Below are positions 13,341 to 59,349 of a stretch of 64,000 nt of DNA, piece after piece. Within the stretch, counting starts at the first letter, position 1, and the number at the start of each line of letters is the position of its first letter. The position numbers were made by a program, and so were the translations under genes. The stretch lies in NCBI RefSeq assembly GCF_019704555.1, contig NZ_AP024745.1, forward strand, positions 2,414,001 through 2,478,000, given 5' to 3'. Source of the DNA: Actinoplanes sp. L3-i22. Lineage in GTDB: Bacteria > Actinomycetota > Actinomycetes > Mycobacteriales > Micromonosporaceae. The notes under the pieces are model-generated. The model was not told where the DNA came from. It made no database searches and worked only from the letters and a program-made list of their open reading frames with translations.

Positions 13341-13343
13341 CCA

Positions 13344-13745: not shown

Positions 13746-13791
13746 TGACGGATACTCGTGGGTAACAATCCGGAAAGGTCGGTGTGACGTC

Positions 13792-39082: not shown

Positions 39083-39114
39083 GCGGTACAAGTTAGTGGT
39101 TTGTGTCAACACAA
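39069..39114. promoter_or_regulatory. Two palindromes at the head of the GntR/membrane unit
   Basis: TTGTGT-CA-ACACAA (39101-39114) is a perfect 14-bp palindrome within the last codons of the SWIM gene. CTTGTA-N12-TACAAG (39069-39092) spans the start codon of the membrane gene. The shared TTGT/ACAA half-sites suggest one dimeric regulator, probably the adjacent YtrA-type GntR. Confidence 0.5.
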
Positions 39115-40823
39115 GTCCAGGCCTGCCGGGTGGTGTCCCGGCGGGCGGCGTGCTCGTAGACCGCCGCGGTCAGCCAGGCCTGGGCCAAGCGGTGGGTGTC
39201 GTGCGGGTCCAGGCGGCCGAAGACGTCGCGGGTCCGCTGCCGGCCTGCCGCGCCGAGGCCGGTGAGGACCGTGCTCGCGGTGACCAGGTGGGCGGCGGCG
39301 AGCCGGCGGGCGTCCGCGTCGACGCCGGAGAGCAGCACCGCCCGACCGGCGGCGGCGACCCGTTCGACCTGGTGGCGCAGTAGATGAAGGGGCGGCGGCT
39401 CGGCGCTCGCGGACGGTTGACCGGGTGGCGGGGTGGCCGTGGGCGCGTCCAGGTCGGCTCGGATCAGGGTGGTGGCGCCCAGGTCGACATGGCCGCCGTG
39501 GGCGGGGCCGAGCCAGGCGGCGGCGAAGGCCAGGCCGTCCACCCGGCGCGGGCCGGTGAACCGGCCGATCAGGCGGATCCGCCGGCCGGCGGCCTGGGTG
39601 GCGAGCAGGCGGAGATTGCCGACGTAGGGCAGCGCCGGGTCCTCGTGCGGCGCGGCGACCGCGATCGTCAGCCCACGCCCGGTGCTCTGCTCGTCGATGG
39701 CCAGCAGCAGCCCGTGCGGGTCCGCGCCGAGGACGGTGCCGTCGAGGAAGGCCAGGTCGTGGGCCATCGGCCGGTCGCCGGCGGGGAGCGCGGCGGCGGT
39801 CAGCCAGCGCGCGGCCTGGGCGCCCGGACCGGTCTGCCAGAGGGCGTCGAGCGGCGCCTCGAACCAGGTGGCGCCGGACGCGGTGACCGCCTGCCGGGCG
39901 CGCCCGTGGCTGAGCCGGCCGGCCGCGGAGGCGTGCGCGTTGATCGCGTGCAGCCCGGCTCGGGCCAGGGCGTGGTGGTTGAGCCGGACCTCGCCCAGAT
40001 CGACCGAGGTCCGGACCGCGGCGGCGGTGGCCGGCTGGTCGGCGGGCCGGACGTCGGAGACCACCCAGAGCCGGCCGGTCGCGTCGGCCAGGTAGGTGGC
40101 CGCTCCGGCGTGCCCGGTCGCGGCCCGGACCGGCTCGCAGAACAGGCCGTACAGTCGCAGGTCACCGACCGGTTCGTAGTCGCGGCGGGCGGTGCCCATG
40201 GCCGTACCGTCGCCGGTTTTGATCCGATGGCAGGCGGCCAGCACCTCGCGCAGGTCGTCGGTGAGGTCGGCCAGGTGGAAGGCCGGGTCCTCGCGCCGGG
40301 CCGCCCGCAGCCGCTCGACCACCCGGATCGCGGCCGCCGCCGGGCCGTGCAGGCCGGTCGCGCGGGCCTGATGGACCGCGCGCAGCAGGTCGGCCTGGGC
40401 GATCGCGCCCGCGCCGGGGATGCCGTTGGCGAGCACCGCGGCCGCGGCGGACCACAGGGTGTCGGCGGCGGCTTCCTGAACCGCGCTCACCGTCGGTTCC
40501 ACCGTCGTGGTCGCGCCGGCGGTGCTCGGCTCTTCCGGAACCGGCTCGCCGGTGTGGACCGGGGCGGCGCTCAGCACCGCCGCCCGGTGCAGGCAGCGCG
40601 GCGCGAGCAGGCAGCCGCAGACGGCGTCGTCCGGGACCAGGACCGGCACCTTCAGGGTGATCGTCACCTGATCGTCCGGGCGGACCGTGACGACGTCGCC
40701 GGCGGACTCGACGGGCCAGGCCGCGGCCTGCGGCACCGCCTCGTCCAGGCGTTTGCGCAGCCGGGCGGGGAGGGCCGCGACCGCCTCGGCGGTCACCGCG
40801 GGATCAACCGGGGGCAGACTCAT
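39093..40823 (-). CDS. SWIM zinc-finger protein of the yeh-like operon
   Basis: The 576-residue protein carries the SWIM metal motif CGC-x5-CLH (Cys69, Cys71, Cys77, His79) near its N-terminus, expected to bind zinc and to mediate DNA or protein contacts. The rest is unassigned; a basic segment with RRIRLIGRFTGPRRVDG and repeated WLT/W-rich stretches lies in the second half. Its ATG overlaps the stop of the DUF5682-VWA gene by 4 nt. By position and domain it corresponds to E. coli YehQ in the yehLMPQ set. Function is unknown in any organism that I know of. Confidence 0.85.
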   Translation of the reverse strand: MSLPPVDPAVTAEAVAALPARLRKRLDEAVPQAAAWPVESAGDVVTVRPDDQVTITLKVPVLVPDDAVCGCLLAPRCLHRAAVLSAAPVHTGEPVPEEPSTAGATTTVEPTVSAVQEAAADTLWSAAAAVLANGIPGAGAIAQADLLRAVHQARATGLHGPAAAAIRVVERLRAARREDPAFHLADLTDDLREVLAACHRIKTGDGTAMGTARRDYEPVGDLRLYGLFCEPVRAATGHAGAATYLADATGRLWVVSDVRPADQPATAAAVRTSVDLGEVRLNHHALARAGLHAINAHASAAGRLSHGRARQAVTASGATWFEAPLDALWQTGPGAQAARWLTAAALPAGDRPMAHDLAFLDGTVLGADPHGLLLAIDEQSTGRGLTIAVAAPHEDPALPYVGNLRLLATQAAGRRIRLIGRFTGPRRVDGLAFAAAWLGPAHGGHVDLGATTLIRADLDAPTATPPPGQPSASAEPPPLHLLRHQVERVAAAGRAVLLSGVDADARRLAAAHLVTASTVLTGLGAAGRQRTRDVFGRLDPHDTHRLAQAWLTAAVYEHAARRDTTRQAWTCVDTNH

Positions 40824-43800
40824 CGCACCTGATCTCCGATCCAGCCGGCCAGCTCGGCCGGGCTCAGCGCGGCCACCGGCATCCCCGCGCCGACCAGTTG
40901 CGAGGCGATGCCGGTGCTGTACCGCGGGCGTCCCCGGTCGTCCAGGCCGGCGCAGCCGAGCAGCGTGGCCCCGTCGTCGGCGAGCGCCCGCGCCGCCGCG
41001 AGCAGGTCGCCGACCGGGAAACCCTCCTCGAAGTCGCTGATCGTGACGATCATGGTCCGGCTCGGGACGAGCATGATCTGGCGGGCGTACCGCAGGCCGG
41101 CCGCGATGTGCGTGCCCCCGCCGACCTGGACCTCCAGCAGCAGCGACAGCGGGTCGGCGACCCGGTCGGTGAGGTCGATGACCTCGGTCGAGAACGTGAC
41201 GAAGTGCGTCCGCAGCGCCGGCACCCCGGCCAGCACCGACGCGGTCAGCGCCGCCCAGATCGTCGACTCCTCCATCGAGCCGGACACGTCGACGAGCAGG
41301 ATCATCTGCCAGTCGACGCTGCGCCGGCCCAGGCTCCGGAACACCGGGCGCTCCGGCAGCAGCCGCGGCCGCCCGGCCGCGTCGCGCCGCACGGTGTGCA
41401 GGTTCTGCCGCACGGTCGCGGCCAGATCGAGCCGGCCGGTCGGGCGGCGGGTCGGCCGGGGCATGCCCAGCCCGGTCAGCGCGGGGCGGATCCGGCGGGC
41501 CAGCCGCGCGGTGAGCTCGGCGGTGAGGCGCGCGATCAGCGGGCGCAGCCGGGCGAGCCGGGCCTCGGGCAGGCCGCCGGCCATCGACAGCACGGCGTGC
41601 AGGAGGTCGATCGAGGGGCGGATCCGGTCCGGGTCGGCGGCGAGGACGGCGTCGAGGCGCCCGCGTTCGGCGGCGCGGGCCAGGACCTCGTCGCGTACCG
41701 AAGCTCCGAAGAGGTTTTCCAGATCTTCCAACCAGACCCGGGCCTCCGGGTACGCGGGTTCGCGCCCCGCCCCGCCGACGTCGACCGGGTAGGCGCCCTC
41801 GCCCCGCCCGATGCCGTAGAGCTCGTCGAGCGCCGCGGCGAGCCGCCGTTGCCGGGCCGGCAGCCGGTCACTCTGCCGCCCGAGCAGGAGCCGCCACCGC
41901 TGACCGGGAGTGATCTCACCCGCGGCCGCCGCCGGCCGGTCGGGGACGTTCTCGCCGGCGGGTGTGGCCGGCTCGGGATCGGTGGTGAGGGGCAGGCCCA
42001 GCGCGGTCACCGCGGCGCGGCCGGCGCGGTCGGCGGCGACCCAGCCGGCCACCGTCGCGGCGTCGGTGGCCAGGTGCGGGTCGATGTCGCCGTGCCGGTC
42101 GCCGACCGTACGCAGCAGGCGGTCCCGATCGGCCGGGCTGAGCGCGTCGAAGCCCCCGCGCAGCGCCGGCAGCCGCCGGACGAAGTCGTCGTCGCTCATC
42201 CGGTCCACGGTGTCCAGCAGCGGCGTCAGGAACTCGCCGCCGGACTGCAGCAGCGCCCCGGCGACGCTGAGCGCGCCGCGCAGCCGGTCCGTCGCCCCGG
42301 CGTCCGACAGGTCCACCCAGGACGCCAGCCGGGTCCCGAAGGCCTCCGGCTCCTCGTGTCCGAGCAGCACCCCGACCGCGCCGGCCGCCCCGCTCATCAG
42401 CGGCGAGCCGTCCCGGGCCAGGCCCTCGATCGCCCGGCCGAGCCGGAGTCGCCGCCCGGCCTCGTCCGCCGCCTGGACCAGATCCAGCAGGGCCCGGGCA
42501 TCCTCGATCCGGGCGGACCCGGCCAGCCCACCGACCGCCGCGACCGCCGCCGCATGCAGTTCGTCCCGGGCCGCCGCCAGTCCCTCGCCCAGCTGTGCCC
42601 CGACCGCGGCCTCCGCATCGGACCCGGCGGGTGTGGTCGTGGACCCGGGTGCGGGCGTCGCCGCGGGCAGGCCGGGGAGGTGGCCGCGGGCGATGCGACC
42701 GAGCAGGTGCAACGCGGAGATGATCTGCTGGATCGAGCCGCCGTGGGCGACCGCCCGGCGCACGTCGGCGATCCGGGTGGCGGTCAGCTCGGGCAGGCCG
42801 CAGACCGCGGCCCGGTCCAGCCCGGCCAGCGCCTGCTCGGCGGTCGGGCCGCCGGCCCGCTGCTCGCGGCGCCGGCGGGTGGCCAGCAGGCCCGCCGCGG
42901 CCTGGGCGAGGGTGACCCCGTGCAGCCCGGCGAGCGCCAGGCCCGCGTCGGTCGCCGGGACCCACTCCACCCGCCAGGTGGTGGTCAGCGTCTCCCCGCC
43001 GGTGACCGGCCCGGCCGGCCCGGCCTCCCCGTAGGTCGCGCCGCACGCCGCCAGCCGGCGGATGGCCAGCTCGCGGGCCCGGTCGGTGGGGGAGCGCAGC
43101 GGATCGAGCCGGACCCGCTGCGCCGGATCGCCCGGCCCGGGCAGCTTCAGCGCGGCCAGTTCCCGTTCCACCGCCGGCCGCAGGCCGGTGACCGGCGCGC
43201 CGCCGGGCAGCCGCCCACGCCGCCGCCCGACCAGCACCTCCTCCATGGCCCGGGCCACCCCGCGCCCGGTCCCGGCCGGAGCGCCCTGGGCCAGCACGCT
43301 CTGCAGGGCCTCGACCAGCTCACCCCGGCCCGGCGCGGGCAGCCGGCGCAGCCCGGCGAGGTCCCCGGCCAGCCGGGCCACCTCGGCGGCCTCGGCCGGG
43401 CCGGCCGGTTGGCCCTGCGCCCGCAGCGCCCGCGCGACCTCGACCGCGAACCGGTCGGTGGCGGCCCGGAGCAGCCGGGGCTCGGCGCCGGCCTCGAAGA
43501 CCGCCTGCTGCCAGCGCGGATCCCGGATCCCGGCGGGATAGCCGGACCGCGCGTCCAGCAGGTCGAACGTGTAGGGAACCAGCGAAACGACCGGCTCGTC
43601 CCCACCCGTGGCCGGGGTCGCCCCGGGCCCGTCGAGCAGAGCGGGCGCATGAAACGCCCCGACGACCGCGGCCACCCGCCCCGGGACGCGCGCGAGGTGA
43701 GCCCGCATCCAGGCCTCCCGCCGCAGATCAAGCGGATCCACCCCGTGCCGGATCGCGTCCTGCCGCAGCGCCCACCCCGCGGCCAGCGCCGCCCGTCGCA

Positions 43801-44314
43801 CCGCGTCCGGCGAGCTCCCCGGCGCCTCCGCCTCGACCCACCGATCCCAGAGATCGTCCCCGGCCCGCCCGGAGACCGTGGCGTGCACGGCTTCCTCGAG
43901 CCCGCCCCCGGCCGTCCCGGGCAACCGTTCGCCCGCCCAGGCGGGATCGGTCAACGGCAGGTCCCCGCAGATCACCGGCACCCCGTGGCGCCGCGCCCAC
44001 CGGACCGCCGCCAGCTCCGGGCTGAAGTCCGCGAGCGGGTAGAACGCCAGCGGCCGATCCGCCCCGGCCGCGGCGAGTGCGACCGGTGCGACGGTGTCCG
44101 GATCGGACAGCCAGGGCACCCACGGCTGCATCTCGGCGGGCAGCTCGACCAGCACGGACTCCGGCTGGAACGCGTCCAGCAGCGCGGGCACGGCCACGGC
44201 GACGACCGGTGAGTGGTGCCGCACTCCGATGAGGTGGACCCGCGGGTCACCGGCGAGACGGTCGAGGACCGTACGCAAATCGGATTTTTCTGGTTTTTCA
44301 GGCTCGGAGGACAT
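40820..44314 (-). CDS. DUF5682 - VWA fusion protein
   Basis: This 1164-residue protein joins two parts usually encoded separately. The N-terminal 500 residues begin with the DUF5682 signature HLIGVRHHSPV and continue with VLVELPAEMQPW and RWARRHGVPVICGDLPL, a fold related to TraB/ChaN-like proteins. The C-terminal 250 residues form a VWA domain with a complete MIDAS: DVSGS (Asp1009 to Ser1013), Thr1068 in GGGTHI and Asp1094 in ISDFEEG. A charged helical middle links them. VWA proteins are typical partners of MoxR ATPases, and the next gene upstream encodes one. In E. coli the equivalents appear to be YehM and YehP. The ATG at 44314 overlaps the ATPase gene by 17 nt. Confidence 0.88.
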   Translation of the reverse strand: MSSEPEKPEKSDLRTVLDRLAGDPRVHLIGVRHHSPVVAVAVPALLDAFQPESVLVELPAEMQPWVPWLSDPDTVAPVALAAAGADRPLAFYPLADFSPELAAVRWARRHGVPVICGDLPLTDPAWAGERLPGTAGGGLEEAVHATVSGRAGDDLWDRWVEAEAPGSSPDAVRRAALAAGWALRQDAIRHGVDPLDLRREAWMRAHLARVPGRVAAVVGAFHAPALLDGPGATPATGGDEPVVSLVPYTFDLLDARSGYPAGIRDPRWQQAVFEAGAEPRLLRAATDRFAVEVARALRAQGQPAGPAEAAEVARLAGDLAGLRRLPAPGRGELVEALQSVLAQGAPAGTGRGVARAMEEVLVGRRRGRLPGGAPVTGLRPAVERELAALKLPGPGDPAQRVRLDPLRSPTDRARELAIRRLAACGATYGEAGPAGPVTGGETLTTTWRVEWVPATDAGLALAGLHGVTLAQAAAGLLATRRRREQRAGGPTAEQALAGLDRAAVCGLPELTATRIADVRRAVAHGGSIQQIISALHLLGRIARGHLPGLPAATPAPGSTTTPAGSDAEAAVGAQLGEGLAAARDELHAAAVAAVGGLAGSARIEDARALLDLVQAADEAGRRLRLGRAIEGLARDGSPLMSGAAGAVGVLLGHEEPEAFGTRLASWVDLSDAGATDRLRGALSVAGALLQSGGEFLTPLLDTVDRMSDDDFVRRLPALRGGFDALSPADRDRLLRTVGDRHGDIDPHLATDAATVAGWVAADRAGRAAVTALGLPLTTDPEPATPAGENVPDRPAAAAGEITPGQRWRLLLGRQSDRLPARQRRLAAALDELYGIGRGEGAYPVDVGGAGREPAYPEARVWLEDLENLFGASVRDEVLARAAERGRLDAVLAADPDRIRPSIDLLHAVLSMAGGLPEARLARLRPLIARLTAELTARLARRIRPALTGLGMPRPTRRPTGRLDLAATVRQNLHTVRRDAAGRPRLLPERPVFRSLGRRSVDWQMILLVDVSGSMEESTIWAALTASVLAGVPALRTHFVTFSTEVIDLTDRVADPLSLLLEVQVGGGTHIAAGLRYARQIMLVPSRTMIVTISDFEEGFPVGDLLAAARALADDGATLLGCAGLDDRGRPRYSTGIASQLVGAGMPVAALSPAELAGWIGDQVR

Positions 44315-45407
44315 CGCGGTGTTCCCATAGCTGGCGCCACATCCGCGACCCGGCCTCGGCCCGTCGTCGCAGGGCGCCGTCCCAGTACGCCAGCAGCCGT
44401 TCCGCGTCGGACGGATCGTCCTTCCGGACCACCCCGAGCAGGTGCCCCGGCAGCAGCGACAGCGGATCCGGGCCGGGCAGGTACGCCGCGGACAGCCCGA
44501 TCGACGCGGCCACCGCGACCGCCTCGGCGGTGCTCATCACCGACGACGGCCGTTCGACCTCCCACCCCTCCGCGCTGATCCCGTTGCGCAGGTCCCGGAA
44601 CGCGACGACCAGCGTCTCCAGCACCGCCTCGTCCACCGCGAACCGCGCGCCGCCGCGCTCGACCGCGGCCCGGGCCTGCCGCGCGACCAGCGCGACCTCC
44701 GCGTCCAGGTCGGCGATCGGCGGCACCACCTCGAAGTTGAACCGCCGCTTGAGCGCCGCCGACATCTCGGACACCCCGCGGTCGCGCAGGTTGGCCGTCG
44801 CGATCAGGCAGAACCCGGGCACGGCGTAGCCGACCGCCGCGTCCTGCCCGGTCAGCTCCGGCACGCTGATCCGCCGCTCCGACATGATCGAGACGAGTGC
44901 GTCCTGGACCTCGGGCAGGCAGCGGGTGATCTCCTCGACCCGGGCGACCGCGCCGGTGGTCATCGCGGTGAGGACCGGGGACGGCACGAGCGACTCCGCG
45001 GACGGGCCCTGGGCCAGCAGCAGGGCGTAGTTCCACCCGTACCGCAACTGGTCCTCGGTGGTCCCGGCGGTGCCCTGCACGGCGAGGGCGCTGGTCCCGC
45101 AGATCGCCGCCGCGAGCAGCTCGGACAGCATCGACTTGGCGGTGCCGGGCTCGCCGACCAGCAGCAGCCCGCGTTCCCCGGCGAGGGTGACGACGCAGCG
45201 TTCGACCAGGGCCCGCTCGCCGACGAACTTCGGCTCGATCACCCGCCCGCCGACCGGGACGCCGCCGGATCCGGCGATGAACGTGACCACCGACCGGGGT
45301 GTCATCCGCCAGCCGGGTGGTCGGGCCCCGGTGTCGGCGGTGGCGAGAAATTCCAGCTCATCGGCGTACCGATGCTCGGGCGGGTCGATCTGACGAGCGG
45401 CGGTCAC
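44298..45407 (-). CDS. MoxR-type AAA+ ATPase (YehL-like)
   Basis: The 369-residue protein has Walker A GEPGTAKS (residues 85-92), the Walker B region VARVEEITRC in the form usual for the YehL group (E instead of D in the first position), the SERRISVPEL segment, sensor 1 ATANLRDRG and an arginine-finger segment LKRRFNFE. MoxR ATPases remodel or activate partner proteins together with a VWA protein; here that partner is the next gene. It begins with a GTG overlapping the stop of giant paralogue 1 (GTGA). It is the best candidate for the motor of the whole locus. Confidence 0.92.
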   Translation of the reverse strand: MTAARQIDPPEHRYADELEFLATADTGARPPGWRMTPRSVVTFIAGSGGVPVGGRVIEPKFVGERALVERCVVTLAGERGLLLVGEPGTAKSMLSELLAAAICGTSALAVQGTAGTTEDQLRYGWNYALLLAQGPSAESLVPSPVLTAMTTGAVARVEEITRCLPEVQDALVSIMSERRISVPELTGQDAAVGYAVPGFCLIATANLRDRGVSEMSAALKRRFNFEVVPPIADLDAEVALVARQARAAVERGGARFAVDEAVLETLVVAFRDLRNGISAEGWEVERPSSVMSTAEAVAVAASIGLSAAYLPGPDPLSLLPGHLLGVVRKDDPSDAERLLAYWDGALRRRAEAGSRMWRQLWEHRDVLRA

Positions 45408-48400
45408 CGGGTCTCCTCCAGGTCGTGAAAGCGGGGCACGTCACCGTCGGTGACCCGCGCCCAGGCCGTGCGGAACAGGCGCGGCACCGGGGTCGGTGGG
45501 ACGGGCAGGCCGCCGTACATCGAAATCTTCCAGGTCTCGACGGGCAGCCTCGGCGCCCGGGCCGCCTGCCAGCCACCCGGCAGGAAGACCGGGCGCCCGG
45601 CGCGGGCCCGCTTGGCGGCGACCACCAGGCCGGCCTCGGTCAAGGCCCGCTGCGCTTCGCGCAACGCCTTGACCGACCAGCCAGTCCATTTCTGTACGGA
45701 TCTGTCTCCCGGATCCGGCAGCGCCAGCAGCTGCAGATAGTAGGCGGCGGCGTCGGCGCCCAGCCGGTGCCGCTCGCGCACCGCGCCGACCAGGTCCGGA
45801 ACGCTGATCCGGGGATCGTGAAGATAGCCGCGCACCCCGCCCGGCACGGCCACCACCGCGTCGATCCACTCCGACAGAACGGTCCGGAGAGCCGTGGCCG
45901 TGCCCTCGTCGACGAACCCGATCGCCGGATCGTCGATTCCGGACAGCCGGCTCGGCGCGACATGGTGGAACACCGCCGATCCCCGGGCCACGCCGTCGAC
46001 CAGCGCCGGCCCGGCCTCCGGACGCTCGCCGGCCTCGTGCGACCCATGGCCGACCAGCAGGTCCGGGTTTCGCAAGCGGTCCCGGACCAGCCGCAGCGCC
46101 GCGGGCAGCGCGGCCCGCACCGGATCGTCCGCGGCCAGGTGATACGCGAGCCAGGGCAGCGCGACGGCCGCGTCGGCCAGGTACTGCCCGTCGAACGGAA
46201 CCCCCTGATCAGAAACGGTCCGCTCGTCGGTGCTCAGCCAGTCACCGGGCGCGGGCGCCGCGATCGCCTGCAGCACGGGCGCGGCCCGGAACTCCCCGAT
46301 CACCTTCCCAAGATCAATAACCAGATCCTCCGGTACGGCGGCCCGCCGCCCCCGCAGCCCGATCCACACCTCGGCGATCGCCGCCACGTCCGGCCCCTCG
46401 TCCCACAACCGGCCCGGCTCCACCGGCATCGCCGCGTCCAGCAGCGCCACCCGCTCCGCGAGGCTCAGCTGCCGCAACCCCCGCCGACCGGTCTTGGCCT
46501 GCGCCGACGCGAGTCCCAGGAGCCTGCGCTGGACCGGCGTCAGGAAGTCCGCCTCCGCCCTGGCGATCCCGGGGAGCCCGGCCAGCAGCAGCACCGCCTC
46601 GGACCGGGCCATCCCGGTCGCCGCGACCAGTTCCGCGGCCGCCGCCGGTCGCCACGGCGCGGGCCCCCGGTCGGCCAGCAGGCGGAGGAACTCCCGCAGC
46701 CGGTCACCGGCGAGCCGTCCGCCGGGCCGGAACGAGCCCCGCACGGTCATCTCGGCCGGCAGCCCGAACTCGCCGTCCGGCGCGACCTGGATCCCGGTGC
46801 GCCGCCACCCGGCCGACCCGTCGTGCTCGGGCGCGAACATCAGCGTCGTCCGCGAGCCCTCGCGCAGCACGTACGTCTCGCCGATCGGCATCCGTTCCTG
46901 CGTGATCGAGTAGACCTGGACCGGGTGGCCGGTGCCGTCCAGCGGTGTCCCGGCGACCGCGCCGAGCAGGACGGCCAGGGCCGCCCGCCGGTCGTCGCCG
47001 GTGAGCGGGCTCGCGGCGCGCAGGGCGAGCGCGCCGAACCCGGCGACCAGGCTCGTCCACTGCGCGGAGACCGCCGACAGCGGCCCCGCATCGGCGGTCT
47101 CCGGTTCCGCGAGCATCGCCCCGGCCCGCTGGATCTGCTCCAGGATCCGGTCGCTGCCCGCCCGGCCGCGGTAGTACGTGGTGTTCCCGGTGCAGAGCCC
47201 GTCCCAGGCCAGCCGCAGTGCGCTGTCACCGGCCGTCGGCGCGATGGCGGCCACCGGCTCCAGCAGCGGCGCGATCTCCGCGATCCGCCGACGCAGCGTC
47301 ACCGCCCGGGCGACGACCGCGGCGATCCGGGCACGCAGAACCGGATCGGTGACCTCGGGCAGATGCTTCGCCTCGGGCCCGGCCATCGAGTCGTCGGCGT
47401 CGAGCAGCGCGGCCGCGGTCGATCTGGTCAGGGCCCGCAGCGCGGCCGACCCGGCCTCGTCGCGCGGTCGCATCGCGTGCCACCACTCCACCGGCGGCAC
47501 GGTCCCGGTCACGTCGGGTTCGTCGGAGACCAGCCGCCCGTCGGCCGTCCACAGCCGGACCTCGCCACGCGGGTGACCCCAGACCCGGGTGACCGCCAGC
47601 GGCTCGGTGGCGCCCGGCAGCAGCAACGCCCCGACCAGCATCTCCAGGTCGTTGCCCCGGGAGTCACGCTGCCGGTGGCGCTGCGGCAGCGTGACCCGCC
47701 GCCCGTCGATCCCCTCGCCGGCCAGCAACTCGCCCTCCTCGGTGACCCGCCAGCCGGTCAGGCCGTCCCGGGCGCCGAGCGGCGACCCGGCGAACTCCGG
47801 CGGGACCGGCCGCAGCCGGCCGAGGGCCGGCACGACACCGGGCACCGCGAAGAACTCCGGCACGCTGAACCGGCCGCCTTCACCGGTCCGCGGGTCGAAC
47901 TCCCGCCACCGCCAGGCGTCCTCGTGCCATTCACAGCGCCAGTACGCCCGGCCGTCGGTGGCCATCCGGTACGACTCCTGGTCGAGCGCCCGTGGCTCGC
48001 CGGCCCGCAGCGGCCCGGCGCCGATGGTCAGGCCACCGCCCGGGACCGGCAGCGCGTCCGGCATCCCGGCGGTGTCCCGCATGTGGCCGGTGAACACGTC
48101 GTTCGGCCGGGACGTCCAGTACGCCACCCGCTGCCCACCGGCGGACCGGATCACCAGCAGGTCGCCGTCCACGAACGTGCACTCCCGGGTGGTGTGCGCC
48201 GGGAACGGGAACACGTGCTCGGTGATCCGCCCGTCCGGCGCGACGATCCGCGCGGCCGAGCCGTCGTGGATCAGCAACTCCGGCCACGCCGTTCCGACCT
48301 CCGGCCGGATGAGACCGCTCGCCGCCGCCTCGTACGCCGGCCAGGTCAGCTCGGCGAGCAGCCCGGCCCGCAACGATCGGGCCAGCACCGCGGGCAGGTC

Positions 48401-49939: not shown

Positions 49940-52900
49940 CGCGGCCCCTCCGCATCGAGGTAGCGCGGCCGGTCGCCGGCCTCGGCCCGGGCCCACGCGG
50001 CGCGGAACAACCCGGGCACCGGCAGCGGCACCAGCAGCGTCTTCCCGGCCTCGGCGTACATCGGCAGTTTCCAGGTCTCCACCGGCAGATGCGGCGCCCG
50101 CGCCGCGCGCCACCCACCGGGCAGGAAGACCGCCCGCCCGGCCCGCTCCCGCTTCGCGGAAACCACCAACCCGGCCCCGGTCAAGGTCCGCTGTGCCGCC
50201 CGCAACCCCGGAAGATCAAGATCAAGCCATTCGCGTACGTTCTTGTCCCCGGGATCCGGCAGTGCGAGCACCTGGAGGTAATACGCCGCGGCGAGCGGGC
50301 CCAGCCCGTGCCGCTGCCGCACCTCCTCGACGAGATCGGGCACGCTGACCCGCGGATCGTGCGGATCCCCGCTCGCCCCGTCCGGAGTGGCCACCACCTC
50401 GTCCAGCCACCCGGCCAGCACGATCCGCAGCGCGGTGGCCGACTCGGTGTCCACCAGCCCGAGCGCCGGGTCGTCCGCCCCGCTCAGATGCGCCGGCGCG
50501 AGGTAGTGCGCCACGTGCGTGCCGTAGGTCGTCCCGTCGACGAGCGCCGGCCCGGCTTCCGGCCGGCTCGCCACCCGGTGCAGGCCCCACCGACCAGCAG
50601 GTCCGGGTTCCGCAGCCGCTCCCGGACCAGCCGCAGCGCCCCCGGCAGCGCCGCCCGCCGCGGATCGTCCCAGCTCAGCCTGTACGCCAGCCAGGGCAGC
50701 GCGACCGCCGCCGTCCGCAACCACTCGGCCGTGAACGGCGTTCCGTGGCCCGCCCGGTTCCGGATCTCGAACATCCCGTTCGGCTCACTGCGCCCGTCCG
50801 TGCTCAGCCAGTCCCCTTCAGCCGGTGAAGCAACCGCCCGCAGGACGTCTTGCGCCCGCTCGGTGTCGCCCAGCAGCCGCCCCAGCCCCACCACCAGCTC
50901 ATCCACCACACCCGCGCCCGTAGCGGAAGCCGGACCAGAGGCCACCTCGGCGGGCCCGGCATCGCCCGATTCCACCCGAGCTTCCGCGAACGCCGCCGCC
51001 CAGACTGCCGCCCCGCTCAGATGCGCCGGCACCTGGGCGAGCCGGCTCCGCACCTGGATCGCCCGCTTGACCAGGTCGATGATCCGCTCACGCAGGACCG
51101 CATCGGTCACCGCGGGCAGACACTCCGCCACATGCGCGCCCACCATCCCTCGCACGTCGAGCAGCGCGGCCGCGGTCTCCTCGTCGAGGACCCGCAACGC
51201 CGCCGACCCGGCCTCGTCCCGCGCCCGCAGCGCGTGCCACCAGGCCAGCGGCGGCACCGTCCGGCTCCCGGCCTCGTGCTCGCCGAGCGGGTGCCGGCCG
51301 TCGGCGGTCCAGACCCGGACCCCGCGCCCGCCCCGGCTCACCGGCAGCGGCTCACCGGCGCCCGGCAGCGACACCGCGGCCACCGGCGCCTCGTCGAACC
51401 GCCGATGCGGCCCGCGCGGCCCCGGCACCGAACGGCCGTCGATCCCGGTCCCGGTCATCGCGCCGTCGGCGGTCCGGCTGACCCGCCACCCGGCCAGCCC
51501 GTCCCGGACCCCGAGCGGCGACTCGGCGAACGGCACCGGCCGCAGCGTCGCCTCCGCCGGGACCAGGTCGTCACCGGCCGCGGCGAAGAACGCGGGCCGG
51601 CTCACCCGGCCACCCCGGCCGGTCCGCGGATCGAACTCCTGCCACCGGTGACCGTGCTGGGCCGGCCAGGCCGCGCCCGGGTTGGCCGGCTGGTAGCGCC
51701 AGAACGTCACGCCGTCCCCGGCCAGCGGCCAGCGGTCCGGCGAGACGGCCCGGGCGTCCCCGGGATGCACGGCCCGCAGCCCGGTCGTCAGCCCGCCGCC
51801 CGGAACCGGCAGCGCCGGCGTCAGCCAGCCCTGCGCCGGGTCCACCCGCCAGTCGCCCTCGATCACCTCGTGCGGCCGCGACGACCAGTAACCGGCCCGC
51901 CCGCCCGGGCTTCGCCAGTGCACCAGCAGGTCACCGTCGACCAGCAGGCACCGGATCTCCGGCGCCCAGTCCCGGGGCGCGTGTGCTTCCCCGGTCGCGG
52001 GGAACCGGAAGCCATGCTCGGTGACGTGCCCGTCCGGGCTGATCACCAGCGCGGTCCGCTCGTCGTGCAGCACCAGCTCGGGCCAGGACACGCCGACCTC
52101 GATCCGGTCCAGCCGGGCCGCCGCCGCCTCGTACGCCGGCCAGCTCAGCTCCGCCACCAGCCCGGCCCGCAGGGTCCGGGCCAGCACGGCCGGCAGGTCC
52201 ACGGCGGTGAGCCGCGCGAACGCCGCCGGTGCGGTGGCCAGGCCGGCCGCCGACCACAGCGGGGACAGCACGGCCAGGTCCGCCTCGACGCCGGCGACGG
52301 TGCTGCCGGCGCTCTGGGCGGTCAGCGTCCCGACGAGCTCGACCAGCACGTCCCGTACGCCGGCCGCGTCGAAGCGCGCGACCAGCAGCACCTCGGGCAT
52401 CGCCCGGCCGACCGGCTGCCGGTCGCGGAACCTGTCGAGCATCTCCCGCACGCCGCGCAGCAGCCGGGGCCGCAGGGCAGGGTCGGCGGCGATCGCGGCG
52501 AGATCGCGGCGACCGGCGCCGGCGTCGGCGGCCCACTGCTCGACCTCGAACCCGTTGGCCGGATGCCCGTCGCCGATGTCCACCGGAACCCCGGCGGCCC
52601 GGCACAGGTCCAGGACGTCCAGGTCGGCGTCCCACGGACGGTCGGCGAGGGTCACCCCGCCCTCGGCGATCAGCCGGGGCACCATCCGCTCGACCAGCGC
52701 GAGCAGCCGGGCATTGCGCCGTGTGTGCCGGTACACGTGGCGGTGCAGGTCCAGGAAGCGCGCCAGCCAGCGGCTCGCCGGGCCGGTCGGCGCGGCCAGG
52801 TCGGCGGCCGCCCCGGTCGCCTCCAGCAGCTCCAGCCACTGCTCCCGGATGTCGGTGTCCCACCCCGGCGGGCTCGGCATGATCTCCAGCAGCCGGGCCC

Positions 52901-53753
52901 GGACCGCCGGGTCCCGCTTACCCAGCCGGATCAGGCTCTTCCGCAGCGACTTCCACACGCCCGGGTGGGAACGGGCCATGGCCGGATAGCCGAGCAGCCG
53001 GGTGACCACGTCGTCGGTCTCCCGGTCGGCGTTCAGCCCGGCCGCCCGGGCCAGCCGGGCCAGGTCGGTGACCAGGCCGGCGTGCGGCGCCTGCCCGCCC
53101 GCGACCCGTTGCCGGCTCAGCGACCGGACCAGTTGGTAGGCCTCCGGGGCGGGCCGTCGCTCGGCGACCCCGCGGGCGTACGCGCTCAGCATCGCCGCGG
53201 TCAGCCCGCCGGCCAGGGCGAACTCCAGGTGCACGGCGCGGACCCGGTCCTCGTCCACGGTCAGCCCGTGCACCTGCTCGGCCCGGCGCGCCTCGGCGAA
53301 GCACGTCCCGGCCATCCGCTGGTTGCCGACGTCCAGGAAGGCCCGGCCGGCCTGTTCCCAGAACGTCGGTAGCAGCCGTGGCGCGGCGTCCCCGAGCCGG
53401 GCGGCCAGCGCGGTGTACCCGTCCTTGGCGTTGCCCGGCTTGTGCCGGGCCGTCCGGGCCAGCCGCTCCATGTCCTTGACCAGGGCGAGCGCGTCCCGCC
53501 CGTGGTCCGGGTCGTGCACCAGCGCCCAGGCCGGGAACACCAGCGTCCCCGGCCGCCCGTGCCCCACCTCGGCCGAGCCGGCGGCCGCGAAGCCGAGAAA
53601 CTCCATCGCGAGGTCCTCGGCCGGCCCGACCGTGGCGCCGACCAGCCGGACCACGGCCCGCCCGGCCAGCGCGGGGTGCCGGTAGACGCGGGCGGTGATC
53701 GGGTGCGGGCCGGTGCCGGGCAGGATCCCGCCGGCGTCCAGGACGCCGGTCAT
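49936..53753 (-). pseudogene. Giant paralogue 2, frameshifted and internally shortened
   Basis: The gene aligns with giants 1 and 3 from its ATG (53753, overlapping the upstream stop by ATGA) to its end, but it is interrupted. At a run of four C on the plus strand (50585-50588) the frame shifts by one base: the first frame reads LLVGG and then runs into unrelated residues ending near 50484, while the homologous sequence EAGPALVDG continues in another frame down to 49936. One extra base there restores a 1272-residue protein. It also lacks about 270 residues present in the others, between a RRRIAEI-like helix and the DLVxxLGxVI segment (join near 50870-51030). Genuine decay, a homopolymer sequencing error, or recoding are possible. 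Confidence 0.8.
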
Positions 53754-56700
53754 CGGCTGTTCTCCCCGAGGTCCAGGTAGCGGGGCACGTCCCCGGCGGT
53801 GATCCGGTCCCACGCGGCGGCGAACAGCCGCGGCACGGATCGGGTCACCACCGGCAGGTGCCCGTTGTCCAGGTAGAGCGATTCCTTCCAGGTCTCCATC
53901 GGCGGCCGCGGCGGCTTGTTGGCCTGCCAGCCGCCGGGCAGGAACACCGGCCGGCCGGCGCGTTCCCGTTTGGCGGCCACCACCAGCCCGGCCCCGGTCA
54001 GTGCCTGCTGAGCCGTCCTGAGGGCGGCCGGCTTCCACCCGTTCCACCCCTGCACCGCCCGGTCGCCCGGGTCGGGCAGCGCGAGCAGCTGCAGGTAGTA
54101 CGCCGCGGCGTCGTCGGTCAGGCCGTGCCGCTCACGCACCTCGGCGACCAGCTCCGGCACGCTGACCCGCGGGTCGTGCGGGTCGCCGGTGACCCCGGCC
54201 GGGGCGGCCAGCGCCTCGTCGATCCAGCCGGACAGCACGACCCGGAGCGCGGCCGCGGTGCCCTGGTCGACGAAGCCGAGCGCCGGGTCGTCCGCGCCGG
54301 TCAGGTGGGCCGGCACGAGGTGGTGCGCGGTGTCGTCGCCGTAACTGTCGCCGTCCACCAGGGCCGGCCCGGCGTCCGGTCGTTCGCCCTGCTTGTGCCG
54401 GCCGCGGCCGACCAGCAGGTGCGGGTTGCGCAGCCGCTCGCGGACCAGCCCCAGCGCCGCGGGCAGCGCGGCCCGCAGCGGATCGCCCCACGGCAGGTGG
54501 TACGCCAACCAGGGCAGCGCGATCGCGGCGAGCTGAAGGTGCACGGCGTCGAACGCGGTGCCCTCGGCGGCCTTCGTCGTGAGCGTCCGGTATCGATCGT
54601 GGGTGCTGCGCCCGTCGGTGCTCAGCCAGTCCCCGGCGGTCGGCGCCGCGATCGCCTGCAGCACGGACGCCGCCTGCGCGCCGTTGATCACCCGGGCCAG
54701 CTCGGCGACGAGCGTCTCCGGCACGGCGACCCGCCGCCCCCGGATCCGGATCCACGCCGCGGCGAGCCCGGCCACGTCCGGCCCGTGGTCCCAGAGGTCG
54801 GCCGGCTCGGCGGGCAGCGCCGCGTCCAGCAGCGTCATCCGCTCGGCGAAGCCGAGTCGCTGCAGGGCGGCCCGGCCCACCTTGGCCTGCGCCGCGTTCA
54901 GGCCGAGCGTGCCGCGCTGCGCGGCGGTCAGGAAGTTCGCCTCCCACTTGTGGATCGCCGGCAGCCCGGCCAGCAGCATCGCCGCCTCGGCCCGGGACAT
55001 GCCGGTGGCCGCGGTCAGCCCGGTCACCGCCTCGGGCCGCCACGGCGCCGGGCCGCGCTCGGCCAGCCGGTCCAGGAATGCGGTCAGCCGGGCCCCGGCC
55101 AACCGCCCGCCGGACCGGGCCTCGGACTCGACGGTCAGGCCCTCGGGCAGCCCGAAGTCGCCGTCCGGCGCGATCTGGATCGCCGCGCGCCGCCACTTGT
55201 CGGGCCCGAGCACGTAGTAGTTCCGCTCGGGTGGGAAGAGCACGGTGACCCGGGGGCCGTCGCGGTGCACGAACAGGCCGGTGCCGTCGCTGCGGGCCTG
55301 GCCCACCTCCAGGGTCCGCAACGGCGGGCCGGACCCGTCCAGCGGTGTCCCGGCGACCGCGGCCAGGAAGGCGGCCAGCGCGGTCCGGTCGGTGTCGCCG
55401 GTCAGCGGCGACGCCGCGCGCAGCGCCACCGCGCCCAGCCGGGCCAGCAGCCCGGGCCAGGTCCCGTGCACCGCGGGCAGGTCGGCGTGGCTGACGCCAT
55501 CCGGTGCGGCGAGCAGCGCCCCGACCCCGGCGATCTGCTCCAGGATCTGGAAGCGGGGCGCCGCCGAGTAACCCCAGCCGGACTCCCGCCCGGCCAGCCC
55601 GTCGATGGCCCGCCGCAGGTCGTCGTCGTTCGCCGGTGGCCGCTCCCGCACCGCCGCCGGGCTCCCGCCCAGGTGCCGCGGGATCTCGGCGAGCCGCCGC
55701 CGCATCCGGACCGCGCTCATGACCACCTCGGCGAGCCGGTCGCGCAGCACCGGGTCGGTGACCGCGGGCAGGTGCGTCACCAGGTTCGCGGTGATCGCCT
55801 CGCGCAGCGCCGGCGAGCTGGTCACCGCGTCGTCGACCACCAACAGCGCGGCCGCGGTCGCCTCGTCCAGGGCGCGCAGCGCGGCCGAGCCGGCCGCGTC
55901 CCGGGTCCGCATCGCGTGCCACCAGTCCAGCGGCGGCACGGTGCTGGTGGTCTGGCCCTGCAGGGCGACCAGGCGGGCCCCGTCCGCGCTCCAGATCCGC
56001 AGCTGGTCGTGGGCCGGGCCGCGGCCCTGGTGCCGGGAGATCGGCAGCGGCGCGGTCGCGCCGGGCAGCAGCACCGCGCCGACCACCAGCTCGTGGTCGG
56101 CGCCGACCACCACCCGGCGGCCGTCGACGCCCTCGCCGGTGATCGTGCCGTCCGGCGCCCGGGTCACCCGCCAGCCGGCCAGGCCGTCCCGCACGCCCAG
56201 CGGCGAGCCGGCGAACTCGGCCGGCACCGGCCGCAACTGGCACAGCTCGGGCAGGAGGTCGTCGCCGGCGGCGGCGAAGAACGCCGGGGCGCTGACCCGC
56301 CCGCCGTCGCCGGTACGCGGGTCGAACTCGCGCCAGTGCCAGGTCCGCTCGGCCCAGCCGGCGTCCGGGTCGACCGGCTCACGCCGCCAGAAGGCCGGCC
56401 CGTCCGAGGCCAGCTGGACGAACTCGTCCCAGCTCACCTTCCGGTCGCCGCGGTGCAGCGGACGCCGGCCGTTGGTCAGGCCGCCGCCCGGGACCGGCAG
56501 CACCGGCCAGTTGGTCATCCGCCACTCGCCGTCGGTCACCTCGTCCGGCCGGGACGACCAGTAGCCGGCCTGGCCGTCGTCGCCGTACCAGTGGACCAGC
56601 AGCTCGCCGTCGACCGAGGCGACGCCGATGCGGTTCCAGTACCGCCCGGGGGCGTGCTGCTGCCCGGCGGCCGGGAAGCGGAACACGTGCTCGGTGACCC

Positions 56701-58390
56701 GGCCGTCCGGCGCGATCACCTGGGCCGCCTTGTCGTCGTGGAGCACCAGCTCGGGCCAGGCGACGCCGACCTCGTGCTTGCTCAGGCGGCCGATCGCCGC
56801 CTCGTACGCCGGCCAGGTCAGCTCGGCCATCTGCCCGGCCCGCAGGGTCCGGGCGAGCACGGCCGGCAGGTCCACGTCCAGCAGAGCGCGGAAGCCGTCC
56901 GGCGCGAGGGCCATGCCGGCCGGGGACCAGAGCGCGGCGAGCTCGGTCAGGTCGGCGTCGAGACCGGCGACGGCGTTCGCGCCGGCCTGCCCGGTCAGCT
57001 CGCCGATGATCTCGACCAGCAGCTCCCGGCTGCCGGCCGCGCCGAACGCCGCCGCCAGCGTCTCGTCCGGCAGGGCCGGGCTGGTCAGCGCGAGCCCGTC
57101 GCGCAGGTAGCCGATCGCCTGCCGGACGCCCAGGCGCAGCCGGGGCCGCAGCTCCGGGTCGGCGGCGATGGCGGCCAGGTCGCGGCGGCCGGGCCGGTCA
57201 CCGCGGGCCCAGGCGGCGACCCCGAAGCCGTTGGCGGGGTGGCCGGTGCCGATCCGGACCGGCACGCCGCCGGCCCGGAGCAGGTCGAGGATGTCCAGGT
57301 CGGCGTTCCACGGCTGGTCGGCGATGGACACCCCGCCCTGGGCGATCAGGCGCGGCGTCATCCGCTCCAGCAGGGCCAGCAGCCGCGGGTTGCGCCCGAT
57401 CGACGGCCCGAAACGGCGGCCGCGCACGAACCGCTCCAGCCAGCCGGCGGCCGGGCCGTCCGGCGCGGTCAGGCCGTCGGCCGCGCCGGACGCCGTCAGC
57501 AGCTCCAGCCACAGCTCGACGAAGCCGGTGTCCCACCCGGGCGGGTCGGGGATGATCTCCAGCAGGCGGGCGCGCACGCCGGCGTCGCGCTTGCCGAGCC
57601 GGATCAGGCTCGCCCGGTACGCCTTCCACACCGCGGGGTGCGCCCGGCCCATCGCCGGATAGCCGAGCAGCTGCGTGACCACCTCGTCGGCCTCGTGCCC
57701 GGCGTCCAGCCCGGCGGCCTTGGCGAGTCGTGCCAGGTCGGCGGCCATCGTGGCGTGCGGTGCCAGACCACCGGCGACCCGGCGCAGGGCGAGCGTCTTG
57801 ACCAGCTCGTACGCCTCCGGAGCCGGCCGCCGCTCGACCACCTCCCGGGAATACGCCGCCAGCATCGTCGCGGTCAGCCCGCCGCCGAAGGCGAACTCCA
57901 GGTGCACGTCGCGGACCCGGGCCTCGTCGACGACCAGCCCGTGCACCTGCTCGGCCCGGCGCGCCTCGGTGAAGCAGGTGCCGGCCATCCGGGAGTTCTC
58001 CGCGGCCAGGAAGGCCCGGCCGGCCTCCTCCCAGAACGTCGGCAGGAACTGCGGGGCGGCGGCGTCCAGGCGCCTGGCCAGCTCGGTGTAGCCGTCCTTG
58101 GCGTTGCCCGGCTTGCCCCGGGCCACCCGGGCGAGCTTCGCCATCTCCTTGACCAGGGCGAGCGCGTGCCGCCCGTTGGCCGGGTCGTGGACCAGCGCCC
58201 AGGCCGGGAAGCCGAGCGCCTGCCGCTCGCCGTGCCCCACGTCGGTCACGCCGGCCGGGGTGAAGCCGAGGAACTCCATGGTCAGGTCCTCGGCGGGGCC
58301 GACGGTCGCGCCGACCAGACGGACCACCGTGCGGCCGTCGAGCACCGGGTGCCGGTACGCCCGGGCGGTGATCACCTCGGTGGTCGTCAT
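53750..58390 (-). CDS. Giant paralogue 3 of the yeh-like operon (unknown function)
   Basis: The 1546-residue protein is the longest copy and appears intact. It shares the N-terminal ARAYRHPVLDG and FLGFTPAGVTDVGHG blocks, the TPR-like CFTEARRAEQVHGLVVDEAR stretch, the beta-rich centre (about residues 560-820, with LLVHWYGDDGQAGYWSSRP and WWHAMRTRDAAGS) and the helical C-terminus (LLVGRGRHKQGERPDAGPAL, ALTGAGLVVAAKRERAGRP). No catalytic motif is visible. It starts 4 nt inside the end of the DUF4132 gene and overlaps giant 2 by 4 nt. By position it is the first giant translated, and the best choice for structure prediction of the family. Confidence 0.82.
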   Translation of the reverse strand: MTTTEVITARAYRHPVLDGRTVVRLVGATVGPAEDLTMEFLGFTPAGVTDVGHGERQALGFPAWALVHDPANGRHALALVKEMAKLARVARGKPGNAKDGYTELARRLDAAAPQFLPTFWEEAGRAFLAAENSRMAGTCFTEARRAEQVHGLVVDEARVRDVHLEFAFGGGLTATMLAAYSREVVERRPAPEAYELVKTLALRRVAGGLAPHATMAADLARLAKAAGLDAGHEADEVVTQLLGYPAMGRAHPAVWKAYRASLIRLGKRDAGVRARLLEIIPDPPGWDTGFVELWLELLTASGAADGLTAPDGPAAGWLERFVRGRRFGPSIGRNPRLLALLERMTPRLIAQGGVSIADQPWNADLDILDLLRAGGVPVRIGTGHPANGFGVAAWARGDRPGRRDLAAIAADPELRPRLRLGVRQAIGYLRDGLALTSPALPDETLAAAFGAAGSRELLVEIIGELTGQAGANAVAGLDADLTELAALWSPAGMALAPDGFRALLDVDLPAVLARTLRAGQMAELTWPAYEAAIGRLSKHEVGVAWPELVLHDDKAAQVIAPDGRVTEHVFRFPAAGQQHAPGRYWNRIGVASVDGELLVHWYGDDGQAGYWSSRPDEVTDGEWRMTNWPVLPVPGGGLTNGRRPLHRGDRKVSWDEFVQLASDGPAFWRREPVDPDAGWAERTWHWREFDPRTGDGGRVSAPAFFAAAGDDLLPELCQLRPVPAEFAGSPLGVRDGLAGWRVTRAPDGTITGEGVDGRRVVVGADHELVVGAVLLPGATAPLPISRHQGRGPAHDQLRIWSADGARLVALQGQTTSTVPPLDWWHAMRTRDAAGSAALRALDEATAAALLVVDDAVTSSPALREAITANLVTHLPAVTDPVLRDRLAEVVMSAVRMRRRLAEIPRHLGGSPAAVRERPPANDDDLRRAIDGLAGRESGWGYSAAPRFQILEQIAGVGALLAAPDGVSHADLPAVHGTWPGLLARLGAVALRAASPLTGDTDRTALAAFLAAVAGTPLDGSGPPLRTLEVGQARSDGTGLFVHRDGPRVTVLFPPERNYYVLGPDKWRRAAIQIAPDGDFGLPEGLTVESEARSGGRLAGARLTAFLDRLAERGPAPWRPEAVTGLTAATGMSRAEAAMLLAGLPAIHKWEANFLTAAQRGTLGLNAAQAKVGRAALQRLGFAERMTLLDAALPAEPADLWDHGPDVAGLAAAWIRIRGRRVAVPETLVAELARVINGAQAASVLQAIAAPTAGDWLSTDGRSTHDRYRTLTTKAAEGTAFDAVHLQLAAIALPWLAYHLPWGDPLRAALPAALGLVRERLRNPHLLVGRGRHKQGERPDAGPALVDGDSYGDDTAHHLVPAHLTGADDPALGFVDQGTAAALRVVLSGWIDEALAAPAGVTGDPHDPRVSVPELVAEVRERHGLTDDAAAYYLQLLALPDPGDRAVQGWNGWKPAALRTAQQALTGAGLVVAAKRERAGRPVFLPGGWQANKPPRPPMETWKESLYLDNGHLPVVTRSVPRLFAAAWDRITAGDVPRYLDLGENSR

Positions 58391-59247
58391 CGGTCGGACT
58401 CCTCCTCGGTGACCCGGCCGGCGTGCAGGTGGGCGGCCATCCGCAACCCCTCGGACCAGGCCACCGGCGGCACGTTCGCGGTGGCCAGGTGCTCCCCGGC
58501 GGCGTCGGTGAAGGCCAGGTCGGAGGTCTCGGTCTCGTAGCCCGGGTCGCCCTCGCCGATCCAGACCGAGGCGACCACGATCCGCCCGTCCTCCCAGATC
58601 CGGCAGACGGCCGTGCCGCCCTGCACGCGATAGCCGGCCGAGGTGGCCCGGGACTGGACGTGCCGCAGCTCCTTGAACTTGGCGTCGCCGTAACGACTCA
58701 GCTCGCGCCGCTGCCCGGCCTCGTCGGCCGGCTTGTGCCAGACCTCGCGGAACAGCTGCAGCGTGCCCTGCTCGACGCCCAGGTCGCCGGCGAACTCGCG
58801 CAGGTCCGCCAGGTCGGGCAGCCGGACCGGGTGCGGGATCAGCACCTGCTCGGCGGTGAACCGGGTGGACTCGCCGTCCAGATCGACCACGCCGAGGCCC
58901 TTGTCCACGTCGGCGTCGCGCAGCAGGGCCGCGGTGGCGAGATCCGCCCCGACCGGCACGACCACCAGGTCGCGCAGCACCGCGCGCCACGCCTCGTCGG
59001 CCCAGACCTGGGTGAGCACCGCGACCGGCACCGGCAGCGAGCGGATCATCCAGCGCTCCACCTCGGCGCGGCAGGTCGCCTCGTGCCGGGCCAGCCACTC
59101 GATCAGCTGGCGCAGGCCGGTCACCGCCTCGTGGTCCTTGATCGCTTTGGGCACGCTCTTCAACTGCTTGCCCGCGGTGGTGCGCGCGATCACCCTGCGA
59201 CCGTCGACGCTCACCTCGTAGTCGGCACCCGCCGCTACCCAACCCAT
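58387..59247 (-). CDS. DUF4132 (MolR-like) protein, first gene of the operon
   Basis: The 286-residue protein corresponds to the DUF4132 region of MolR/YehI-like proteins: AAGADYEVSVDGRRVIARTT, KQLKSVPKAIKDHEAV, WLARHEATCRAEVERWMIRS and QVWADEAWRAVLRDLVVVP near the start, then a second half with QRRELSRYGDAKFKELRHVQ. The first segment is 20 residues long. In E. coli this domain ends a much larger protein, whereas here it is separate and followed by the giants. I chose the ATG at 59247 because GAGGGGG lies 6 nt upstream; the ATG at 59253 touches that ribosome-binding site. Only about 50 bp separate it from the upstream terminator, so the operon promoter must lie there; a weak -10-like CACAAT is at 59282-59277. 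Confidence 0.85.
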   Translation of the reverse strand: MGWVAAGADYEVSVDGRRVIARTTAGKQLKSVPKAIKDHEAVTGLRQLIEWLARHEATCRAEVERWMIRSLPVPVAVLTQVWADEAWRAVLRDLVVVPVGADLATAALLRDADVDKGLGVVDLDGESTRFTAEQVLIPHPVRLPDLADLREFAGDLGVEQGTLQLFREVWHKPADEAGQRRELSRYGDAKFKELRHVQSRATSAGYRVQGGTAVCRIWEDGRIVVASVWIGEGDPGYETETSDLAFTDAAGEHLATANVPPVAWSEGLRMAAHLHAGRVTEEESDR

Positions 59248-59302
59248 GGCCATCCCCCTCGCCGAACGTGAGGCGGATTGTGCCAGCGGGCACCGACAAA
59301 AA

Positions 59303-59328: not shown

Positions 59329-59349
59329 AAAAAACCTTCGAACCGACAA

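Follow-up and report, generated by a model that had tools for sequence, protein, structure and literature searches.

A giant-protein operon of Actinoplanes sp. L3-i22 most likely represents a YehL-class MoxR-VWA system of a new partner subtype

The stretch of DNA analyzed here (the window: 64,000 nucleotides of contig NZ_AP024745.1, positions 2,414,001 to 2,478,000 of the 12.0-Mb, single-contig genome of Actinoplanes sp. L3-i22) carries a cassette of seven genes, g1 to g7, all on the minus strand and spanning positions 59247-39093. An earlier note had described at this place a one-strand, yeh-like operon of a DUF4132 protein, three giant paralogues, a MoxR-type ATPase, a DUF5682-VWA protein and a SWIM protein. 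Our analysis confirmed the seven genes, the first four of these assignments and the motifs GEPGTAKS, DVSGS and CGC-x5-CLH. The main result, judged by homology, is that the cassette shares its core with the Escherichia coli genes yehL, yehM and yehP and differs from them in its large partner. The features are as follows.

58387-59247, minus strand: g1, short stand-alone DUF4132 protein of 286 residues (PF13569, E 3.9e-30, residues 26-206)
53750-58390, minus strand: g2, giant A, 1546 residues, with a predicted solenoid, a predicted beta-propeller-like part and a C-terminal module (sequence search and model)
56786-58390, minus strand: N part of giant A, residues 1-535, predicted small beta part followed by a TPR-like helical solenoid (model)
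55955-56758, minus strand: M part of giant A, residues 545-812, predicted beta-propeller-like (model)
53753-55483, minus strand: C module of giant A, residues about 970-1546 (boundaries set from naturally shortened variants in the alignment)
50484-53753, minus strand: g3, giant B, 1089 residues in this frame, with N and M modules and a broken C module (alignment)
49936-50562, minus strand: remainder of the giant B C module in another frame, overlapping g4 by 4 nucleotides
45404-49939, minus strand: g4, giant C, 1511 residues, all three modules (alignment)
44298-45407, minus strand: g5, MoxR-type AAA+ ATPase, 369 residues, P-loop GEPGTAKS (AAA_5, E 1.8e-37)
40820-44314, minus strand: g6, DUF5682::VWA fusion, 1164 residues, putative counterpart of YehM plus YehP (DUF5682, E 4.5e-168; VWA_CoxE, E 6.2e-53)
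43547-44278, minus strand: N-terminal alpha/beta head of g6, residues 13-256, TraB-like candidate (model and fold match)
40841-41503, minus strand: VWA domain of g6, residues 938-1158, with the metal ion-dependent adhesion site (MIDAS) DVSGS (Pfam)
39093-40823, minus strand: g7, SWIM-motif protein, 576 residues (motif)
40587-40619, minus strand: SWIM motif of g7, CGC-x5-CLH, residues 69-79 (motif)
59303-59328, minus strand: terminator-like hairpin between a carboxylase gene and g1, 11 pairs, 10 of them G-C, followed by TTTTT
38375-39112, minus strand: g8, possible membrane protein overlapping g7 by 20 nucleotides, outside the conserved cassette

Neighboring genes overlap by 4 nucleotides at g1/g2, g2/g3, g4/g5 and g6/g7 and by 17 nucleotides at g5/g6. 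The 4-nucleotide overlaps, which had been called near-universal, thus hold at five of the six junctions, and then only when the broken 3' part of giant B is included. Because the hairpin separates the upstream carboxylase gene from g1, g1 is likely the first gene of the unit. Three terminator-like hairpins lie within 45400-59700, compared to a mean of 1.3 in shuffled sequences. No consensus promoter was found, a result that carries little weight in such a genome. Downstream, g8 recurs after g7 in one of seven relatives (G014).

The corresponding row of E. coli K-12 reads yehH (a pseudogene), yehI, yehK, yehL, yehM, yehP, yehQ. As in the window, members of the MoxR, DUF5682, VWA and DUF4132 families and a SWIM-annotated protein stand there in the same order, with tandem paralogues (yehH and yehI) preceding the ATPase as the giants do. 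The yeh-like character proposed earlier was borne out by sequence identities of 47% between g5 and YehL, 26% between g6 and YehM, and 36.5% between g6 and YehP, while g7 gave no tblastn match to YehQ at 1e-4. By homology, the MoxR, DUF5682 and VWA proteins of the window correspond to YehL, YehM and YehP, and the SWIM-motif protein stands where YehQ does. The two sets differ in that E. coli has no giants and carries DUF4132 as residues 954-1138 of the 1210-residue YehI, whereas the window encodes it as a separate 286-residue protein, and in that YehM and YehP are separate proteins, fused in g6. A relationship between the giants and YehI is unsupported at the profile level, since comparison of the giants with YehI profiles gave no match (hhalign probability 0.1%). 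Judged from these alignments, a short DUF4132 protein and one to three giants replace YehI. Because DUF4132 is separate and the giants are unlike YehI, we place the cassette as a variant of the YehL class, not as a plain member. The named MoxR subfamilies number seven, and YehL is among them (PMC3893208). E. coli-type sets in the same order also occur in the window's own class, in G185 and G391, with YehL at 63-64% to that of E. coli; the complete yehI-L-M-P-Q sets of this class lie at L103, 8337-17365, and L104, 4980-12547.

Another arrangement, SWIM-DUF5691/MoxR/DUF5682/VWA, is found at 10.02 Mb of the window's own genome (L046) and also at L105 and L108. This type has the MoxR, DUF5682 and VWA families in common with the window; unlike in the window, its DUF5682 and VWA are separate and, in the own-genome copy, no giant was found, SWIM is fused to DUF5691 upstream of MoxR and the P-loop reads GVPGTAKT. 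A divergent VWA/MoxR/DUF5682 set lies at 8.03 Mb (L045). We built a tree from 38 of 65 MoxR matches, leaving out further copies from places already represented and the incomplete rows L049/L050, L077, L083 and L089. In this tree the 15 giant-linked ATPases form one clade (support 100/100), YehL and two YehL-type genes of the window's class form another (100/100), and g5 falls on the YehL side, separated from the 10.02-Mb type with support 97/89; long branches were flagged. The B label of the tree rests on the giants and the Y label on the long DUF4132 gene. The A (SWIM-DUF5691) label was given by MoxR similarity, so that its clade is partly circular, a SWIM-DUF5691 gene being confirmed beside only 3 of its 18 rows (L046, L105 and L108).

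The beta-propeller MoxR-vWA ternary systems combine a GXXXTAKS-type P-loop with a large partner that has TPR and beta-propeller parts (PMC7159879). The window also has a P-loop of this type and, as its model indicates, probably TPR and propeller parts in giant A. It departs from these systems in that g5 scores 21.4 bits against bpMoxR (PF20030), below the cut-off of 27, in that no propeller follows the VWA domain, which ends g6 (residues 938-1158 of 1164), and in that the systems are reported mostly from other phyla (Kaur et al. 2020, PMC7159879). A term search of the main text of PMC7159879 returned no mention of SWIM, Yeh or DUF4132. RavA-ViaA and NorQ-NorD resemble the window in pairing a MoxR ATPase with a VWA partner, and the NorD VWA is a structural match of g6, but they belong to other MoxR subfamilies (PMC3893208). 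A search of PADLOC-DB 2.0.0 with six cassette proteins (g3 left out) gave one match, at E 0.069, which is not meaningful. To our knowledge, neither DUF5682, DUF4132 and SWIM proteins nor giants are components of RavA-ViaA or NorQ-NorD. No paper describing this operon, or giving the yehL operon a function, was found in a literature search that had subscription journals and preprints outside its reach.

The set recurs in other genomes. Giant A found a match in nine of 60 related genomes and in seven of the 36 of the same genus, the own genome included in both counts; nine candidates were scored per genome, so presence and copy numbers are lower bounds. In tblastn searches with the window proteins, the order DUF4132, giant(s), MoxR, DUF5682/VWA, SWIM was recovered at the loci of seven out of seven relatives. 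The eighth matching genome, G031, was left out with its match scattered over small contigs, and in G049 the contig begins within the SWIM gene. Three giants are present per locus in G010, G014 and the window, and one in the other five. The SWIM motif C-x-C-x5-C-x-H is conserved in 11 of 11 other loci of the giant subtype that were checked; the Pfam SWIM match of g7 is sub-threshold (12.4 bits, under the cut-off of 19.6).

We also surveyed 396 genomes sampled evenly across the phylum, scoring two candidates per genome for giants and for DUF5682, which again makes the counts lower bounds. The giant profile matched nine genomes, eight of them over full length; the ninth, G098, matched over about 64 positions (E 6e-4). 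Each of the eight has a DUF4132 match 0.2-0.4 kb away from its giant match, in an open frame of 290-377 residues, and, 1.2-1.5 kb beyond the nearest giant, a DUF5682 match whose frame has at least 1237 residues. A MoxR with 72-76% identity to g5 stands beside the giant in all seven other survey genomes with full-length giants, and SWIM is present in both of those that were checked (G082 and G239). The remaining DUF4132 survey matches are mostly in longer frames (514-1791 residues; one of 466 is below the cut-off, and one has 220). DUF5682 was found in 24 of the 396 genomes; hence, the core also occurs without giants.

Giant A matched 11 records of a plasmid collection, five of them over at least 80%. 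Two of the five were opened and proved to be linear Streptomyces megaplasmids of 846 and 912 kb, both with DUF4132, giant, AAA ATPase, DUF5682 and SWIM-motif protein in a row. Three of the four junctions in the plasmid cassettes show the 4-nucleotide overlap, the giant-ATPase gap is 138 nucleotides, the plasmid giant is annotated as a "DNA-binding protein," and transposase genes lie within the fetched plasmid stretches. By this comparison of loci, the cassette keeps its gene order in different genomic places and seems to travel as a unit. The single-system idea had been made to depend on whether homologues of the giants lie mostly away from MoxR, VWA and SWIM genes; they were found beside MoxR, DUF5682 and DUF4132 genes in eight of eight survey genomes with full-length giants, at seven of seven loci of relatives, and on the two plasmids opened, which does not refute the idea. 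Giant A was absent from the 50,697 phage records searched. The sole MoxR relative in these records is a YehL-like MoxR with 45.5% identity to g5 at 12876-13910 of MT835988.1, an unannotated 14-kb "Bacteriophage sp." record from human feces.

In the genome search, giant A gave a match of 62% to giant C and one of 65%, over query residues 6-911, to the N-terminal part of giant B; on these similarities g2, g3 and g4 are paralogues. Of 7991 candidates scored, 696 are homologues of giant A at E ≤ 0.001, the best named ones coming from Actinoplanes. No credible match to the giants was found in Pfam, NCBIfam or PADLOC (giants A and C), or among the sequences of solved structures. Alignment with relatives delimits three modules: N, from residue 1 to about 460-535; M, to about 965; and C, about 970-1546. 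Natural variants contain N and C only (P0064, P0069, P0074 and P0077) or N and M only (P0067). The model of giant A residues 1-967 has a mean predicted local distance difference test (pLDDT) of 87 and matches solenoid and propeller-like folds with middling Z scores; giant A is thereby predicted to consist of a TPR-like solenoid and a beta-propeller followed by the C-terminal module.

Giant B differs from giants A and C in two ways that the earlier note does not mention. A large internal deletion leaves it about 300 residues short of giants A and C, and its C module is divided between two frames by a frameshift near 50560, the g3 frame stopping at 50484. The frameshift may have arisen in sequencing or may reflect true decay of the gene; some relatives are intact, and others are shortened in different ways. 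In an N-module tree (25 hand-chosen rows, midpoint-rooted), giant B and all five shortened forms fall in an eight-row branch (94/96; seven of the rows 98/94), which also contains two forms of full-length size, P0020 and P0024. We infer from this tree that giant B may belong to an old line of paralogues that kept N and repeatedly lost either M or C.

The g6 protein carries both PF18934 (DUF5682) and PF05762 (VWA_CoxE) in one fused chain, each far above its cut-off. Its model has a pLDDT of 74.9 and a predicted template modeling (pTM) score of 0.56. VWA matches fill the PDB lists of the fold search, among them the VWA of NorD from the NorQ-NorD MoxR system. In the viral fold list a TraB-family protein stands at rank 45 (E 0.017, probability 1.00, 237 columns); the list gives no aligned range, and the match presumably covers the g6 head. 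The TraB family itself (PF01963) appears below threshold (E 0.014) in one of 15 DUF5682 members, and a search of solved-structure sequences with g6 and its alignment returned nothing useful. Residues E57, S98, E100, D118, E161 and R184 of the DUF5682 head are invariant in 40 of 40 sequences from three subtypes, a set made of 23 locus rows picked by an RHH-containing pattern and 17 others cut at RHH, without L091 (no row obtained) and without the divergent 8.03-Mb copy. Since the rows were chosen or cut at RHH, R32, H33 and H34 are invariant in this set by construction; their invariance rests on a separate 15 of 15 rows.

Adjoining the cassette, a carboxylase gene at 59350-63885 of the window codes for a single chain that combines biotin carboxylase C-terminal, ACC central, biotinyl and carboxyl-transferase domains; the gene is probably longer than the listed frame, which would begin within it (open frame 1823). 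The neighborhood of this gene shows cassette presence and absence. A GGDEF/EAL gene sits between cassette and carboxylase in G010, and the two are 5.8 kb apart in G468 (L115). Three genomes of the same genus, G035, G022 and G463 (L113, L114 and L116), have a carboxylase end 86-90% identical, with no cassette gene in roughly 11 kb beyond. No clean empty site was seen when the flanks were sought in 60 same-genus genomes, positions being compared for some only. Some cassette-flanking genes we take, by our own reading and from no search, to be acyl-CoA dehydrogenase and aldehyde dehydrogenase genes. ARAGORN reports one tRNA-like gene of undetermined anticodon at 18979-19067 of the window.

With moderate confidence, we read the locus as one ATP-driven system, a YehL-class MoxR-VWA operon of a giant-protein subtype, in which a MoxR-VWA motor would act on the DUF5682 head with the giants as adaptors. 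The mechanism proposed for MoxR-VWA pairs is capture of a peptide by the VWA and remodeling of the bound partner by the ATPase ring (PMC7159879; for RavA-ViaA see also PMC3893208). In the window, g5 would form the ring, and the VWA domain would capture a peptide of the client or partner and relay the work of the motor. Because the VWA is fused to DUF5682, this work may reach the DUF5682 head, a possible TraB-like hydrolase that each ATP cycle would remodel or un-gate. The giants, with their predicted solenoid and propeller, would serve as recognition or adaptor subunits bringing targets to the motor, their duplication and module loss would alter what is recognized, and the DUF4132 and SWIM proteins would be accessory. 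The patchy and plasmid-borne occurrence suggests a conditional role, in stress or conflict, rather than a housekeeping one. In Deinococcus radiodurans, the DUF4132 gene DRA0166 is strongly upregulated on depletion of the DdrO repressor (PMC8533742), which by analogy may hint at stress.

Two groups of results weigh against parts of this reading. Conserved neighborhoods support one system as the earlier note proposed, but not its strict form, since G015, G239 and one plasmid have proteins that consist of the C module alone, or of a part of it, at a distance from MoxR. Such proteins lie at L102, 4156-5487, at L100, 7858-9756, and at L119, 3432-5426. The L100 protein adjoins a gene resembling, by eye, a Ser/Thr kinase, and the L119 protein lies near annotated helix-turn-helix and MarR regulators. 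The other group concerns the head. The hhalign comparison of the DUF5682 head with YbaP-type TraB was not significant (E 0.18, shuffled controls 0.11-0.79) with a shallow TraB alignment of 43 close YbaP relatives, YbaP and one actinomycete sequence, and neither was that with the EreA type (E 0.088, controls 0.15-0.78; 21 rows, one a short piece). A survey aimed at a deeper TraB set yielded one of 198 genomes. A TraB-like head is thus a weak link, drawn from one fold match and one sub-threshold family match, with profile comparison against it.

Two main alternatives have similar weight. The locus could encode a chaperone dedicated to assembly or maturation, as RavA-ViaA, CoxD-CoxE and NorQ-NorD are; MoxR and VWA would then remodel a particular metalloenzyme or respiratory complex, with the giants as scaffolds for this client. 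In favor of this, most of the characterized MoxR-VWA pairs that PMC7159879 lists act in assembly or metal insertion, Nuo subunits are bound by RavA-ViaA (PMC3893208), and the fold search with g6 brought up the NorD VWA. However, no conserved client enzyme gene stood out beside the cassette: the window flanks are absent from the fetched stretches around the G015, G032 and G034 cassettes, and none came to notice in the two plasmids, although a client could be encoded elsewhere. We regard this explanation as a doubtful one.

Alternatively, the cassette could be a conflict system, anti-phage or inter-bacterial, in which an invader would be detected by the giants and the motor would switch on the DUF5682 head or set an effector free. 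Its patchy presence (seven of 36 same-genus genomes, the own one included, and full-length giants in eight of 396 across the phylum) is consistent with such a role, as are megaplasmid carriage near transposase genes, the duplicated giants with modules missing in the B line, and the GXXXTAKS-type P-loop and TPR/propeller parts shared with the beta-propeller ternary systems (PMC7159879). The six proteins, however, had no meaningful PADLOC match, the 50,697 phage records contained no giant and only one MoxR relative, and Pfam scans gave no known effector domain. We regard this explanation, too, as doubtful. A sharper version, in which a hitherto undescribed, plasmid-mobile actinomycete conflict system uses a YehL-type MoxR-VWA motor to gate a TraB-like DUF5682 hydrolase tied to the VWA, with duplicating TPR-propeller giants as the receptors that decide firing, strikes us as unlikely. 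Chance clustering of unrelated genes, to which the C-module orphans might point, is very improbable given the conserved neighborhoods (eight of eight, seven of seven, and two of two) and the single MoxR clade.

As judged from homology and gene order, the giant-protein operon is most likely a new partner subtype of the YehL class, a class itself uncharacterized. Three partner subtypes of one core (the YehI type, the SWIM-DUF5691 type and the giant type) turn what was an isolated oddity of E. coli into a comparative problem, and the DUF5682 head that they have in common, in which six polar residues do not vary in 40 of 40 sequences, offers a concrete enzymatic hypothesis that is testable in E. 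coli K-12 and laboratory Streptomyces. If the sharper conflict-system reading were true, E. coli yehI-Q would be a distant form of this machine that senses in another way.

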